A program made the translations under genes and the position numbers. A stretch of DNA of 25,249 nucleotides. It comes from a virus. The stretch covers positions 1 through 25,249 of the IMG/VR virus record IMGVR_UViG_3300038701_000199, one strand, 5' to 3'. Below the pieces are notes generated by a model that was not told the DNA's origin, made no database searches, and saw only the letters and a list, made by a program, of their open reading frames with translations. Below, piece by piece: positions 3,651 through 21,856 of this stretch. The number at the start of each line of letters is the position of its first letter. Positions within the stretch are counted from its first letter, which is position 1.

Positions 3651-4556
3651 ATGACTGACGAGACAACTCAAGAAACCAATACATCCCCGACTGATGCTGC
3701 CGTTGTGCTCTCCTCCGATGGTACATCAGCTTCCGTTGATCCCAACGTGGACCGCTCGGGCGATGACACCGCCGGGGGTGATGACCTCATCCTCGGTAAG
3801 TTCAAGACCGTCGAAGACATGCAGGCGGCGTATGTAGCACTGGAGAAGAAACTTGGAACCAACACTGGCGACGATGGTAACGGATTGGGTGATGGTGCTG
3901 ATGATGCTGATCCTGGCGCTGGTGATGATGGTGATGGCAGTGGGCCTGGTGAGCCTGATGGTGAGCCTGAAGGAGGATCTGATGAAGGATCTGAATTCGT
4001 TTACAGCGAACAGCTCGACGCCGTCCTCACCAATGCCGAGATCGACCCCAAAGCCCTAGCGGAAAGCTACGAGGCTGACGGCGAGATCTCTGAAGGTGAC
4101 TACGAGAAGCTGGCCAAAGCTGGCTACCCCAAGGAAATGGTGGACGCCTACATCAGTGGCCTCCAGAAGTCTGCAGGTGAAACTGTTGCTGTCACTGAGG
4201 CCCAGATCGCAGAGATCAAAGGTCTGGCTGGTGGGGACGAAGGCTTCTCTAAGGTCCAGAAGTTCATCGCGGAGACGTACACCAAAGAAGGTGTCGATGC
4301 CTACAACGCCGTGCTCAACACCGGTGATGTGACCAAGGTCAAAGCTGCTGTCGGCGAAGCTGTTGCTGCCTACCAGAAAGCCATGGGCACTGAAGGCGAC
4401 CTCCTCGGGGGTAACAAAGCCGCCACCACAGGCTACGCTGATCAGGCTGAGTTCTTGGAGGACATGAAGAACCCTCAGTACAAGACGTCTCAAGCGTTCC
4501 GCAACGCTGTGGACCGGAAGCTGGCTGCATCGCCCAACTTGGGGATCACCCGGTGA
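3651..4556 (+). CDS. Capsid assembly scaffolding protein, T7 gp9-like
   Basis: The scaffold guides capsid protein into the procapsid and leaves before maturation. The 301-residue length matches T7 gp9 (307), and the gene sits between portal and capsid as in T7. The N-terminal half is very acidic and Asp/Gly-rich (roughly residues 25-125), with a motif LGKFKTVEDMQAAYVALEKK near residue 50 that is typical of these scaffolds. The C-terminal segment EFLEDMKNPQYKTSQAF followed by a basic tail is the usual capsid-interacting end. The ATG follows the preceding stop by 2 bp. The stop codon overlaps the GTG start of the holin gene (GTGA). The acidic middle is encoded by GATGGTGAT-like short repeats at about 3885-3960, which explains its low complexity. 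Confidence 0.93.
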   Translation: MTDETTQETNTSPTDAAVVLSSDGTSASVDPNVDRSGDDTAGGDDLILGKFKTVEDMQAAYVALEKKLGTNTGDDGNGLGDGADDADPGAGDDGDGSGPGEPDGEPEGGSDEGSEFVYSEQLDAVLTNAEIDPKALAESYEADGEISEGDYEKLAKAGYPKEMVDAYISGLQKSAGETVAVTEAQIAEIKGLAGGDEGFSKVQKFIAETYTKEGVDAYNAVLNTGDVTKVKAAVGEAVAAYQKAMGTEGDLLGGNKAATTGYADQAEFLEDMKNPQYKTSQAFRNAVDRKLAASPNLGITR

Positions 4557-4972
4557 GCACTGTAGCTGACATCAGCAAGCTCCTTCAGGGGGTAACTCCC
4601 CTGATCGACGAGCTGTACACAACGCCCGAAGAGCGCGAACAAGTCAAAGCCAACTTCATCAAGATGGCTTACCAGAGCGACATGGGGCAGATGGAGGTCA
4701 ACGCTCAAGAAGCCCGCAACCCTAGCCTGTTCGTGTCAGGCTGGCGTCCAGCCATTGGTTGGATCTGTGTGGCCGCTCTTGCGTTGAGCTTCCTGATCTT
4801 CCCAATCGTGAGGGCAGGGGCGTTGTACTACAGTGCATTCACAGGCGAGCATGTACCTATCGAAGGTATACCTGATCTGGACTGGGGAACCCTCAGCCCG
4901 ATCCTCATGGGTATGCTTGGTCTAGGTGCTCTCCGCACCTTTGAGAAGACCAAAGGCGTAGCTCGTAATTAA
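4553..4972 (+). CDS. Holin of the 3TM gene-transfer-agent type
   Basis: A 139-residue membrane protein resembling the 'holin of 3TMs, for gene-transfer release' family (GTA_holin_3TM) known from alphaproteobacterial gene transfer agents and phages. The family signature is visible: NPSLFVSGWRPAIGWICVAA at residues 56-75 leads into a transmembrane helix (about 67-86). Near the C terminus, LSPILMGMLGLGALRTFEK gives a second hydrophobic helix followed by a charged tail. The residue 1-55 region is soluble and helical. Holins open the inner membrane for lysis. The start is GTG at 4553, overlapping the scaffold stop by 4 bp, which implies coupled translation; no better ATG exists upstream. The location inside the capsid gene cluster is unusual, since T7's holin gene is near the terminase. 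The 3' end overlaps the second promoter-like repeat. Family assignment is from motif recall. Confidence 0.85.
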   Translation: MSTVADISKLLQGVTPLIDELYTTPEEREQVKANFIKMAYQSDMGQMEVNAQEARNPSLFVSGWRPAIGWICVAALALSFLIFPIVRAGALYYSAFTGEHVPIEGIPDLDWGTLSPILMGMLGLGALRTFEKTKGVARN

Positions 4973-4990
4973 GTTCCACCATCCAGATAA
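4967..4990 (+). promoter_or_regulatory. Promoter-like repeat, copy 2
   Basis: The 18-bp core (4967-4984) is identical to copy 1, and the following AGATAA extends the identity with copy 3 to 24 bp. The holin stop codon TAA (4970-4972) is embedded in it, so the element has been kept intact despite overlapping coding sequence. The MazG-like gene begins at 5002, with AAGAG at 4989-4993 as its likely ribosome site. The position ahead of the capsid cluster parallels the T7 phi-9/phi-10 promoters. Function is inferred. Confidence 0.58.
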
Positions 4991-5577: not shown

Positions 5578-5651
5578 TCCAAGGTAGCTCAATGGTAGAG
5601 CACCCGGCTGTTAACCGGAAGAAGGAGGTTCGATCCCTCCCCTCGGAGCCA
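5578..5651 (+). tRNA. tRNA-Asn (anticodon GTT)
   Basis: A 74-nt cloverleaf with encoded CCA. The acceptor arm is TCCAAGG/CCTCGGA (5578-5584 with 5641-5647), discriminator G at 5648 and CCA at 5649-5651. The D stem is GCTC/GAGC (5587-5590, 5598-5601), the anticodon loop CTGTTAA (5608-5614) with anticodon GTT at 5610-5612, and the T arm GGAGG-TTCGATC-CCTCC (5624-5640). The acceptor start TCC, the end GGAG and discriminator G agree with bacterial tRNA-Asn. Two non-pairs are visible: A-C at acceptor position 4-69 and C-A at 27-43. It reads AAC and AAT; AAC is heavily used in the late genes here. Whether the mismatches affect charging is unknown. Confidence 0.93.
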
Positions 5652-6811: not shown

Positions 6812-6846
6812 AGGTCGATGCTCTAACGAGTGTCGGCCTTTTTTTT
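6812..6846 (+). terminator. Rho-independent terminator after capsid gene
   Basis: A 12-bp stem pairs 6812-6823 (AGGTCGATGCTC) with 6828-6839 (GAGTGTCGGCCT), including three G-U pairs, around a TAAC loop and followed by an 8-T run (6839-6846). Its position directly after the capsid gene matches the T-phi terminator of T7, which limits transcription into the tail genes. Confidence 0.93.
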
Positions 6847-16937: not shown

Positions 16938-16964
16938 AGCGCCACAACAACTCAAACTCTAAAT

Positions 16965-17001
16965 AGGGGCCGTCAGCTTAATCGCTGGCGGTTTTTTCAT
17001 G
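16965..17001 (+). promoter_or_regulatory. Fibre gene start site with hairpin between Shine-Dalgarno and AUG
   Basis: The only Shine-Dalgarno-like sequence before the fibre ATG (16999) is AGGGG at 16965-16969, about 29 nt away and normally too far to work. The intervening hairpin occupies 16970-16991 exactly; if it folds, the remaining spacer is the 7-nt TTTTTTC, an ideal distance. The fold would therefore be needed for translation of the fibre. Similar arrangements are known in other phage genes (for example T4 gene 38). Inferred from sequence only. Confidence 0.5.
16970..16997 (+). terminator. Intrinsic terminator between gp16-like gene and fibre gene
   Basis: An 8-bp stem CCGTCAGC/GCTGGCGG (16970-16977 with 16984-16991, one G-U pair) with loop TTAATC is followed by six T residues (16992-16997). 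The fibre ATG begins two bases after the T-run, so a terminated transcript would end just before the start codon. It may reduce fibre expression relative to core proteins. Confidence 0.8.
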
Positions 17002-19746
17002 CCTGATACCTACATCGACTACACTGGCGATGGGTCCACTACCTCCTACACGTTCCCGTTTCCGTACATCTATCAGGACCACGTGGACGTTTTTGTGGAC
17101 ACTGTTGCCGTCGCTTTTGCATTCGAAAGTGGCAACACTGTAACCCTAAGTCCGCCTCCTGCAGATGGCGCTGCGATCCGTATCCAGCGTACGACCTCTC
17201 GGGATCCTGTGGTTGACTTCCAAGACAACACTCCGCTGAGCGAAGAAGAGCTTGACCTGCTGCAACTGCAGAGCGTCTACATCGCACAAGAAGGCACTGA
17301 GCGTAGCCTTGCGCTTGCTGCTGACGGCACGTGGGAAGGTGCATCCCGCCGGATTGGCTCTGTAGCTGACCCTGTGAATGACACTGACGCGGTCAACAAG
17401 CAGTACATCGAACAGGTCGCAATCATCCGTGATACTGAAACTGACCAGTGGGATGGCCAGGACCGGCGCATCGAGAACGTCGGTGCTCCTGACAAAGGGA
17501 CTGATGCGGTCAACCGTGACTACGTCGCAAGTCTTGTCACTGGTGAGAAGGTCTACGATGACGGCACACGCTTCCGCAATGAGGCCGAGTTCCTGACAGC
17601 TATCGGGGAAAACCTCGGCTGGGATGACGGCGACACTGTGTTCATCGACGGCGACCGCAAAGGTGCTGCATTCCTGTTCGACAGCAACAACACTGACACC
17701 GCCGACAACGTCTCTCTGTTCGCTCCTGCTGGGGGTGGCCGGTTCAAGGCTATGGTCGGTCGTGACATCCTCACCTCTGAGCTGGGCATCGTCGACAGCC
17801 GCTCTCTGGACCAGTCACAGAAGCTGCAGGACGCCATTACGGTGACCACTAATGAGCGGTCCACCTTGGTATTCGACAGCAACGTGGACTGTGGTGGTGC
17901 GCCGATCTGGGTGAACACTACAGGGACCTATGACAGCTACGCGGCTGGCTCTCGGTTCTCTTGGCGGTCTGCCTTCCGTACTTACTTCCGCCTGTCCAAT
18001 GTCTTCCTGACCTTCGGTAAGATGTACAAGGACGTGTCGGTTGCGGGTGACGGTTCGGACCTCCGCTGGGCACCCAACTCTGGGGCTACCTCACAGGCGA
18101 TCCTGCGGGACTTGGACATCGAAGGCGCAGTCCGCTTCCACAACATCGAAGGCACTCTTCGGGTGGATAGCTGTAAGTTCGAACCTGAGCTGCGGGACAG
18201 TAACTTCCGCTCGGCGCTGGCTACAGCAAACTGGGGGCGCAACCTGTTGAACGTCTGGGACGATAACCAGACGGTGGCCAACGGTGTGAACGCTGGTGGT
18301 GTTGACACACTGCCTGAGGCTTATCCTGAGCTGTATGCTCTGGTCGAGTTCTTGTACTGCAACCACATGCTGGTCACGGCCTGTAACTTCCAGAACGGAC
18401 AGGACTTCGTGAAGAACGACGCAGGTCTCGGCCTGACAGGTTACACGCTGTCTCAGTGTTCCAACCCGACGATCATCTCTGGTCGTACGGTCCACAACCA
18501 AGTGGGAGCTGACCTCGGCGATCACCCGATCATGGGTGGCTCTGGACTGACAAATGCCCGTATCCTCGATCAACATATTGAGGAGAACTACGACGAGGCA
18601 TACATCATCCGGCGTGGTAAGTTCGTGGAGATCAACACTCAAGGTCGTCCTCAGGATACCGGGAGCCTGATCACCAAGCCTCTGATCCGCATCGAAGACA
18701 GCGCAAACACGCCTGAAGATGTCTACATCAGTGGCTACCTGAGCGGTCCTCAGTCGGGCTGGAAGAACGTCACTGCTATCGAGATCGAAGGCGGCACTAA
18801 CGTCAACGTCAGCGCGTTCATGCAAGAGTTCGGCACAGGTGTGAAGATCTCTGGTGAGTGTGAGATTGGACGTCTGGAGCCTCACTTCGGTGAGCAGATC
18901 GACCGGCGTATCGTGTGGTCGGAGCATCCGCTGCCTCGCGTTGAAGACCTCAACCTGAGCACGTTCTCTCCGATCTCCTTCATGAACAGCTCGCGTGGTG
19001 GCTACTTTGACCTCGAAGCGCCTAAGCACCTCCTGAGGGAATACCTCGGTACAGGTGTGACAGCCGTTCCTGGTCTGACTGCAGCGATCCCCGCAAGTGG
19101 TGCTGAGGACATGACTGCAGGTGTGAAGGTGGCTACAGCCAATATCTACACTCCGACAGATGGCATCAGCACGGACTGGAACGGTGCTCTGGCGGGCGCT
19201 GGTAAGATCCATGCAGACAGTTCCGTTGTGAGCTGGTTCGTGGGTTTCTCTGACGCTGCCGATCAGGACACTATGCCTTGTGAGATCACTGCGTCGGGGG
19301 CCATCACGGCCACTGCAGCAAACTTCGCAGGATTCTGCTACACCCGCTTCGCGACAGGTGCGACGATCCATGTGGTCGCTCGTAACGACAGTGGCACGCC
19401 CACAGCTATCGACACTGGCATTGCTTTCTCAGGGTCGGACGATGCTCCGACAATGATGACCATGATCAAACGTAATGGTCAGGCTCAGTTCCGTATCGGT
19501 GGTGAGTTCGTGAATGTCTATGTCGGCCCTGATGTGGACGGTGAAGAGTGGGAGCTGGACGGTCCTATGGACGCTAACGGCGATCAGCTCGACACAGGCC
19601 CAGACTCCGCGTCGGACAAGGCAGTCGATCCGGGGGCTACCCTCGGCTTCGAAGTATCCGCCCATTCCAAAACAGCAAGCGCTGTGAACATCACGATCCC
19701 TGCGGTCGCGGTGCGAGCAGAGCGTGACCCATCGAAAGGACACTAA
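16999..19746 (+). CDS. Tail fibre/tailspike with T7 gp17-type N-terminal domain
   Basis: A 915-residue receptor-binding protein. Residues 1-110 (TYIDYTGDGSTTSYTFPFPY, then VDFQDNTPLSEEELDLLQLQ) form the T7 gp17-type virion-attachment domain, which supports the ATG at 16999. Two copies of a short motif follow (W-x-G-x-x-R-R-I-x-x-V with TDAVN-x-x-Y), beginning at W112 and W151; these probably make a stalk or collar. Residues about 260-670 have the Asn/Gly/Val turn-rich pattern of a right-handed beta-helix, suggesting a spike-like body. The C-terminal 230 residues are beta-rich and probably the tip or trimerisation part. No catalytic residues can be assigned with confidence. The ribosome site is unusual (hairpin between Shine-Dalgarno and AUG). 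The small terminase gene begins at the base after the stop. Confidence 0.93.
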   Translation: MPDTYIDYTGDGSTTSYTFPFPYIYQDHVDVFVDTVAVAFAFESGNTVTLSPPPADGAAIRIQRTTSRDPVVDFQDNTPLSEEELDLLQLQSVYIAQEGTERSLALAADGTWEGASRRIGSVADPVNDTDAVNKQYIEQVAIIRDTETDQWDGQDRRIENVGAPDKGTDAVNRDYVASLVTGEKVYDDGTRFRNEAEFLTAIGENLGWDDGDTVFIDGDRKGAAFLFDSNNTDTADNVSLFAPAGGGRFKAMVGRDILTSELGIVDSRSLDQSQKLQDAITVTTNERSTLVFDSNVDCGGAPIWVNTTGTYDSYAAGSRFSWRSAFRTYFRLSNVFLTFGKMYKDVSVAGDGSDLRWAPNSGATSQAILRDLDIEGAVRFHNIEGTLRVDSCKFEPELRDSNFRSALATANWGRNLLNVWDDNQTVANGVNAGGVDTLPEAYPELYALVEFLYCNHMLVTACNFQNGQDFVKNDAGLGLTGYTLSQCSNPTIISGRTVHNQVGADLGDHPIMGGSGLTNARILDQHIEENYDEAYIIRRGKFVEINTQGRPQDTGSLITKPLIRIEDSANTPEDVYISGYLSGPQSGWKNVTAIEIEGGTNVNVSAFMQEFGTGVKISGECEIGRLEPHFGEQIDRRIVWSEHPLPRVEDLNLSTFSPISFMNSSRGGYFDLEAPKHLLREYLGTGVTAVPGLTAAIPASGAEDMTAGVKVATANIYTPTDGISTDWNGALAGAGKIHADSSVVSWFVGFSDAADQDTMPCEITASGAITATAANFAGFCYTRFATGATIHVVARNDSGTPTAIDTGIAFSGSDDAPTMMTMIKRNGQAQFRIGGEFVNVYVGPDVDGEEWELDGPMDANGDQLDTGPDSASDKAVDPGATLGFEVSAHSKTASAVNITIPAVAVRAERDPSKGH

Positions 19747-19998: not shown

Positions 19999-20030
19999 GC
20001 GGCTACCCTAGTGGTAGTCGCTTTTTCTTT
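19999..20030 (+). terminator. Intrinsic terminator between terminase subunits
   Basis: A 9-bp stem GCGGCTACC/GGTAGTCGC (19999-20007 with 20013-20021, one G-U pair) has loop CTAGT and is followed by TTTTTCTTT (20022-20030). A smaller hairpin GCCCT-gtag-AGGGC (19970-19983) precedes it. It separates terS from terL, so terL expression needs read-through or a promoter not recognised here. Confidence 0.85.
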
Positions 20031-21832: not shown

Positions 21833-21856
21833 AATTAAGTTCCACCATCCAGATAA
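21833..21856 (+). promoter_or_regulatory. Promoter-like repeat, copy 3
   Basis: The 18-bp core at 21833-21850 is identical to copies 1 and 2, and 24 bp in all match copy 2. It begins 1 bp after the terL stop codon. Unlike the other copies, the next gene starts about 370 bp away, so a transcript from here would have a long untranslated leader. In T7 the region after gene 19 holds the phi-OR promoter. Function is inferred. Confidence 0.58.

Follow-up and report, generated by a model that had tools for sequence, protein, structure and literature searches.

The tail-fibre gene of a T7-like phage appears to start at a junction where one RNA hairpin may both end transcription and help to build a ribosome site. 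The window (the whole stretch analysed, a viral fragment of 25,249 bases with T7-like gene content) carries, directly before the ATG of this gene, a purine motif that could act as a Shine-Dalgarno (SD) sequence, a stable hairpin and a T-tract. We read this arrangement as an intrinsic terminator merged with an accommodated (split) ribosome site at the fibre start, and give this reading a probability of about 0.5. That is, the hairpin with its U6 would terminate transcription, as hairpins common between the internal virion protein D and fibre genes would do, and so lower fibre transcript levels. In the window lineage, the SD that usually stands 3' of the terminator would have been lost. In read-through RNA the hairpin would stay folded between AGGGG and AUG, leaving about 7 unpaired nt of a 29-nt gap, and with the hairpin folded AGGGG could work as the SD. 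Termination, SD use and the net effect on fibre amount are what we infer from this layout.

Anatomy of the junction and the fibre start

The order AGGGG, hairpin, TTTTTTC and ATG 16999 can be read directly from the sequence and is confirmed as originally described (table 1). All of these elements upstream of the ATG lie in a gap of 61 bases between the TAA of the internal virion protein D gene and the fibre start, and the distance from AGGGG to AUG is 29 nt along the strand and 7 nt with the hairpin folded. The 93-nt context of the junction folds better than its shuffles (z -2.55; 2/200).

Table 1. Features of the junction between the internal virion protein D and tail-fibre genes
Feature	Position	Strand	Remarks
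Internal virion protein D gene, 1205 aa	13320..16937	+	upstream neighbour; PHROG 6651, E 6.5e-68; TAA 16935-16937
AGGGG, candidate SD adjoining the hairpin	16965..16969	+	anti-SD duplex -4.8 (9-nt flank -5.2)
Hairpin CCGTCAGC-TTAATC-GCTGGCGG	16970..16991	+	8 bp, one G.U, -13.3 kcal/mol; predicted terminator stem and proposed spacer-closing element
GGCGGU in hairpin 3' arm, alternative SD	16987..16992	+	duplex -5.4/-5.5; needs opened hairpin
TTTTTTC, putative terminator U-tract and 7-nt hairpin-to-AUG stretch	16992..16998	+	from sequence
Tail-fibre gene, 915 aa, T7-gp17-type N-terminal domain	16999..19746	+	PHROG 2710, E 1.9e-25

The original prediction of ATG 16999 as the start codon holds. 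This codon is in register with the starts of all 11 of the 11 aligned sequences, an in-frame TAA lies 5' of it at 16960, and the stretch from 16960 to 17011 has no further ATG, GTG or TTG. By this comparison, ATG 16999 is the true start of the fibre gene.

A predicted terminator at a recurrent position

On its + strand the window has only three strong sites of stem plus T-tract, of which this hairpin is one; none was seen on the - strand. The other two (6812-6839 and 19999-20021) are intergenic, one lying 3' of the major head gene and one 3' of the small terminase gene. With 8 bp, a stability of -13.3 kcal/mol and TTTTTT directly 3', the fibre hairpin has the stable GC-rich stem and adjoining U-tract of an intrinsic terminator, and we predict that it is one. 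A stock terminator scan of the window misses it, probably because the TTTT of the tail can be taken up in pairing with GGGG. As an aside, the site at 6812-6839 is a 12-bp terminator directly 3' of the major head gene, the place of T7's T-phi, and the next gene (6861) has a weak SD; a tRNA-Asn (GTT) gene, the only Rfam hit over the window, lies at 5578-5651, shortly upstream of the major head gene.

To see how common such a junction is, we can turn to 131 distinct starts, nearly all of them of homologous fibre genes (a few, e.g. L275, belong to other genes). The AT-rich junctions among these mostly have no hairpin. Many GC-rich junctions carry a strong hairpin that in most cases has a T-rich tail; a normal SD and then the start codon follow, as in Roseobacter phages CRP-114 and CRP-125, Desulfovibrio phage ProddE, Rhizobium phage RHEph01 and Bordetella phage BB8. 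These hairpins share an equivalent position and are unlike in sequence. ProddE (MZ666938.1, Autographiviridae) is a close parallel, with an annotated terminator at the same junction, a strong hairpin and a T-rich tail; unlike the window, it and similar phages have a normal SD between hairpin and ATG. The terminator part of the original prediction thus gains from the recurrence of a strong, usually terminator-like hairpin in many relatives. Since the hairpin itself is recurrent, what is odd in the window is that no SD follows the hairpin.

In six junctions a strong hairpin closely precedes the ATG (by 2-13 nt) with no SD between the two: the window, its sister L270, and L246, L258, L276 and L280. 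Of these, only L270 keeps the SD-hairpin-AUG arrangement of the window, and L246, L258, L276 and L280 have an SD on neither side; in the wider set, most other hairpin junctions have their SD 3' of the hairpin. Some of these junctions have features of their own. Between the internal virion protein D and fibre genes of L276 (4516-4559) and L280 (4600-4644) there are two seemingly mutually exclusive hairpins and no SD; in L276 the alternatives are a terminator-like ACCCTCAG..CTGGGGGT and GGGGGTTC..GAATCCCC, which ends a few nt before the ATG. Such exclusive hairpins could form a switch. In L246 (11405-11420) the hairpin loop contains an ATG that shares its frame with the fibre start 3' of the T-tract, giving two possible starts.

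Candidate ribosome sites

The original prediction held that AGGGG is the only plausible ribosome site, and this does not stand: GGCGGU in the 3' arm of the hairpin pairs with the anti-SD equally well or better (-5.4/-5.5 vs -4.8/-5.2), if the hairpin melts. An SD as strong as AGGGG occurs in 6.8% of random 9-mers from the window genome, so AGGGG alone is weak evidence; among terminator 5' flanks, 0/77 have an SD of this strength. Moreover, AGGGG is mostly paired in the isolated predicted fold (2-26% unpaired), chiefly with an upstream CUCU, and freeing it would cost an estimated 4.8 kcal/mol. Keeping the hairpin and using AGGGG comes to a net +0.9 kcal/mol vs +1.7 kcal/mol for an SD-less start, a gain of less than 1 kcal/mol that is within error, in estimates that leave out what it might cost to accommodate a hairpin in the ribosome.

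The sister phage keeps the arrangement and lacks the tail

The case for a split site is best made by L270, the closest relative found (48% in internal virion protein D, over its C-terminal part). In the tree it is sister to the window phage with 99/95 support, on branches of 0.6+0.6 (~1.2 changes per site), a distance at which DNA free of selection should have become unrecognisable. The gap in L270 reads CACCATCAACCCCTAACTAGAGGA-GCCTGCCCCA-GAGA-TGGGGTGGGC-CAATAGTGC-ATG. Specifically, AGAGGAG adjoins a 10-bp hairpin, whose first stem base is the last G of this motif, and 9 nt then lead to the ATG; the linear SD-to-ATG distance of over 30 nt (about 33) becomes 9 when the hairpin is folded. No SD lies between hairpin and ATG, and the only other SD in the gap is inside the stem. 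At -7.9, AGAGGAG has a strength found in 0.4-0.9% of random 9-mers and in 0/77 terminator flanks. The L270 hairpin has no U-tract, which means no terminator there. An ATG in its loop was considered as the start of a small gene and rejected, as it opens only a 25-codon frame and a real gene is unlikely.

In a local alignment the window and L270 match over the 5' portion of the gap, up to and including the SD (shuffle p 0.0025); MAFFT had placed the two SDs out of register. The stem and 3' flank differ between the two phages. In sequence terms, what the window and L270 have in common is SD-hairpin-AUG and not termination. A ribosome-site role independent of termination is thereby supported by L270, our best evidence for a split site. 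L270 belongs to the six compared junctions that have no SD after the hairpin, and the case is one of two phages. The original prediction came with a check, the comparison of SD-to-hairpin and hairpin-to-AUG distances in related phages, and L270 passes it with a strong SD touching a different hairpin and 9 nt to the AUG.

The larger claim, that one hairpin is terminator and ribosome-site builder, is left with mixed fortunes. For it, L270 keeps SD-hairpin-AUG even without a U-tract; against its ribosome-site half, most hairpin relatives have a normal SD after the hairpin, four have none on either side, and AGGGG is mostly paired. The two opposing effects of one fold on fibre output, put forward in the original prediction, are a conjecture.

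Other ways to start the fibre gene

The main rival to a split site is SD-independent starting, in which the ribosome would enter at AUG 16999 through the open U-rich stretch (e.g. by way of protein S1) and AGGGG would be a leftover of a lower stem; we consider this doubtful. Most of the AUG region is unpaired and can be freed for only 1.7 kcal/mol, the window genes at 3651, 5002 and 6861 also have weak SDs, and GGGG could pair with TTTT as a lower stem does. In L278/L107 a matching GAGGGG belongs to the lower stem of the terminator, with CGGAG 3' of the hairpin; this could point to a source of the SD and is also a reason to suspect that AGGGG is a leftover. The four junctions with an SD on neither side suggest that fibre genes there may start without one. 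In particular, L246 (GCCCCC-TTAT-GGGGGC-TTTTTTA-ATG) repeats the 7-nt distance from hairpin to AUG with no SD 5' of the hairpin; however, its fibre is cyanophage-like, and its host may for that reason depend less on SDs. Most window genes do have an SD (about -4.7 to -7.1), and L270 has a strong one at the same place, even though L270 lacks both a U-tract and a partner strand that still pairs with this SD.

Two further readings have less to recommend them. One takes the junction as a terminator only, with poor fibre translation, or translation by restarting ribosomes that have passed the stop of internal virion protein D (61 nt upstream), and the layout as unselected. The recurrence of strong junction hairpins in many relatives fits this, as does the abundance in phages of a T-tract and then ATG after a terminator: terminator stems with TTTTTNNATG behind them are found very commonly in viral contigs (L125-L204), with at least 120 matches to one stem sequence, and among the matches listed the ATG is mostly not a gene start, opening short or non-gene frames. 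This pattern is a trap for gene finders. At the fibre junction, on the other hand, the alignment marks ATG 16999 as a true gene start, and in L270 both SD and hairpin persist across about 1.2 changes per site with the terminator tail absent, so we find a terminator-only junction unlikely. Less probable still, and in our view very unlikely, is that GGCGGU is the SD, at a normal spacing of 6-7 nt to the AUG, and that the hairpin hides it and makes fibre translation low or conditional. Its duplex (-5.4/-5.5) is good, and L270, L246 and L258 also have G-rich 3' arms, but such arms are normal in GC-rich terminators and there is no known opener. By energy estimate, opening the stem would cost 13.5 kcal/mol in the window for a duplex gain of 5.4, and 25.7 kcal/mol in L270 for a gain of 7.0 from its 3'-arm SD; a folded split site is favoured over 3'-arm use, with a margin of 7 kcal/mol in the window and of 15 kcal/mol in L270.

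A promoter role for the junction is disfavoured. The stretch CTCTAAATAGGGG slightly resembles the end of a T7 promoter and was rejected, as it does not recur in the window. The likely promoter of the phage's own RNA polymerase is AATTAAGTTCCACCATCC, present in three + strand copies without mismatch (1503-1520, 4967-4984 and 21833-21850; 0.02 expected), in or beside intergenic gaps. This motif is absent from the junction, and the purine stretches of the window and L270 do not recur within their own sequences; together these two results underlie our view. The start of the fragment holds a ribonucleotide reductase large-subunit gene (14-1477). A search with the junction DNA gave no match in named phages; matches among genome contigs were short and of little use. 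The pattern AGGGGCC..GGTTTTTTNATG was also tried in viral contigs and set aside, almost none of its 15 matches standing before a sizeable reading frame.

Relation to known split and hidden ribosome sites

Split ribosome sites have a precedent in T4. As described in PMC3014915, intervening structure brings the SD to the AUG in genes 38 (22 to 5 nt) and 25 (27 to 11 nt), on the evidence of mutants and, for gene 25, also of probing and phylogeny; the work is credited there to Nivinskas 1999 and to Malys and Nivinskas 2009. By its sequence, the window junction resembles these sites in geometry and is a candidate member of their class: a local hairpin between SD and AUG would restore the distance (29 to 7 in the window, about 33 to 9 in L270). 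It differs from them in belonging to a T7-like phage, in having a weaker SD and in a hairpin with a U-tract, a predicted terminator. A hairpin at a translation start can also hide the ribosome site, an example cited in PMC3014915 being Aeh1 mobE. Unlike that type, in which the hairpin covers the site, the window has a free AUG and its candidate SD outside the main stem. The passages returned by a full-text search of open-access papers held no further natural split ribosome sites.

What would be new here is a split ribosome site merged with an intrinsic terminator, in a T7-like phage. Natural SD-hairpin-AUG sites are, to our knowledge, known only from T4-like phages. A fuller account of how the merger arose is offered tentatively, with less confidence than the merged site itself. 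A T7-like lineage would have lost the SD after its terminator and taken the purines 5' of the stem as a new one, so that one hairpin came to be terminator and ribosome-site assembler and every RNA polymerase escaping termination would carry a ready-made start site. Later, the sister lineage would have dropped the terminator tail and kept the ribosome site, or the window lineage would have gained the tail. If this is true, the SD-hairpin-AUG layout has more than one origin and is reached by simple means, starts of this type are misjudged by gene finders that require an SD 5-10 nt before the AUG, and a single fold can determine how much fibre transcript is made as well as its translation.
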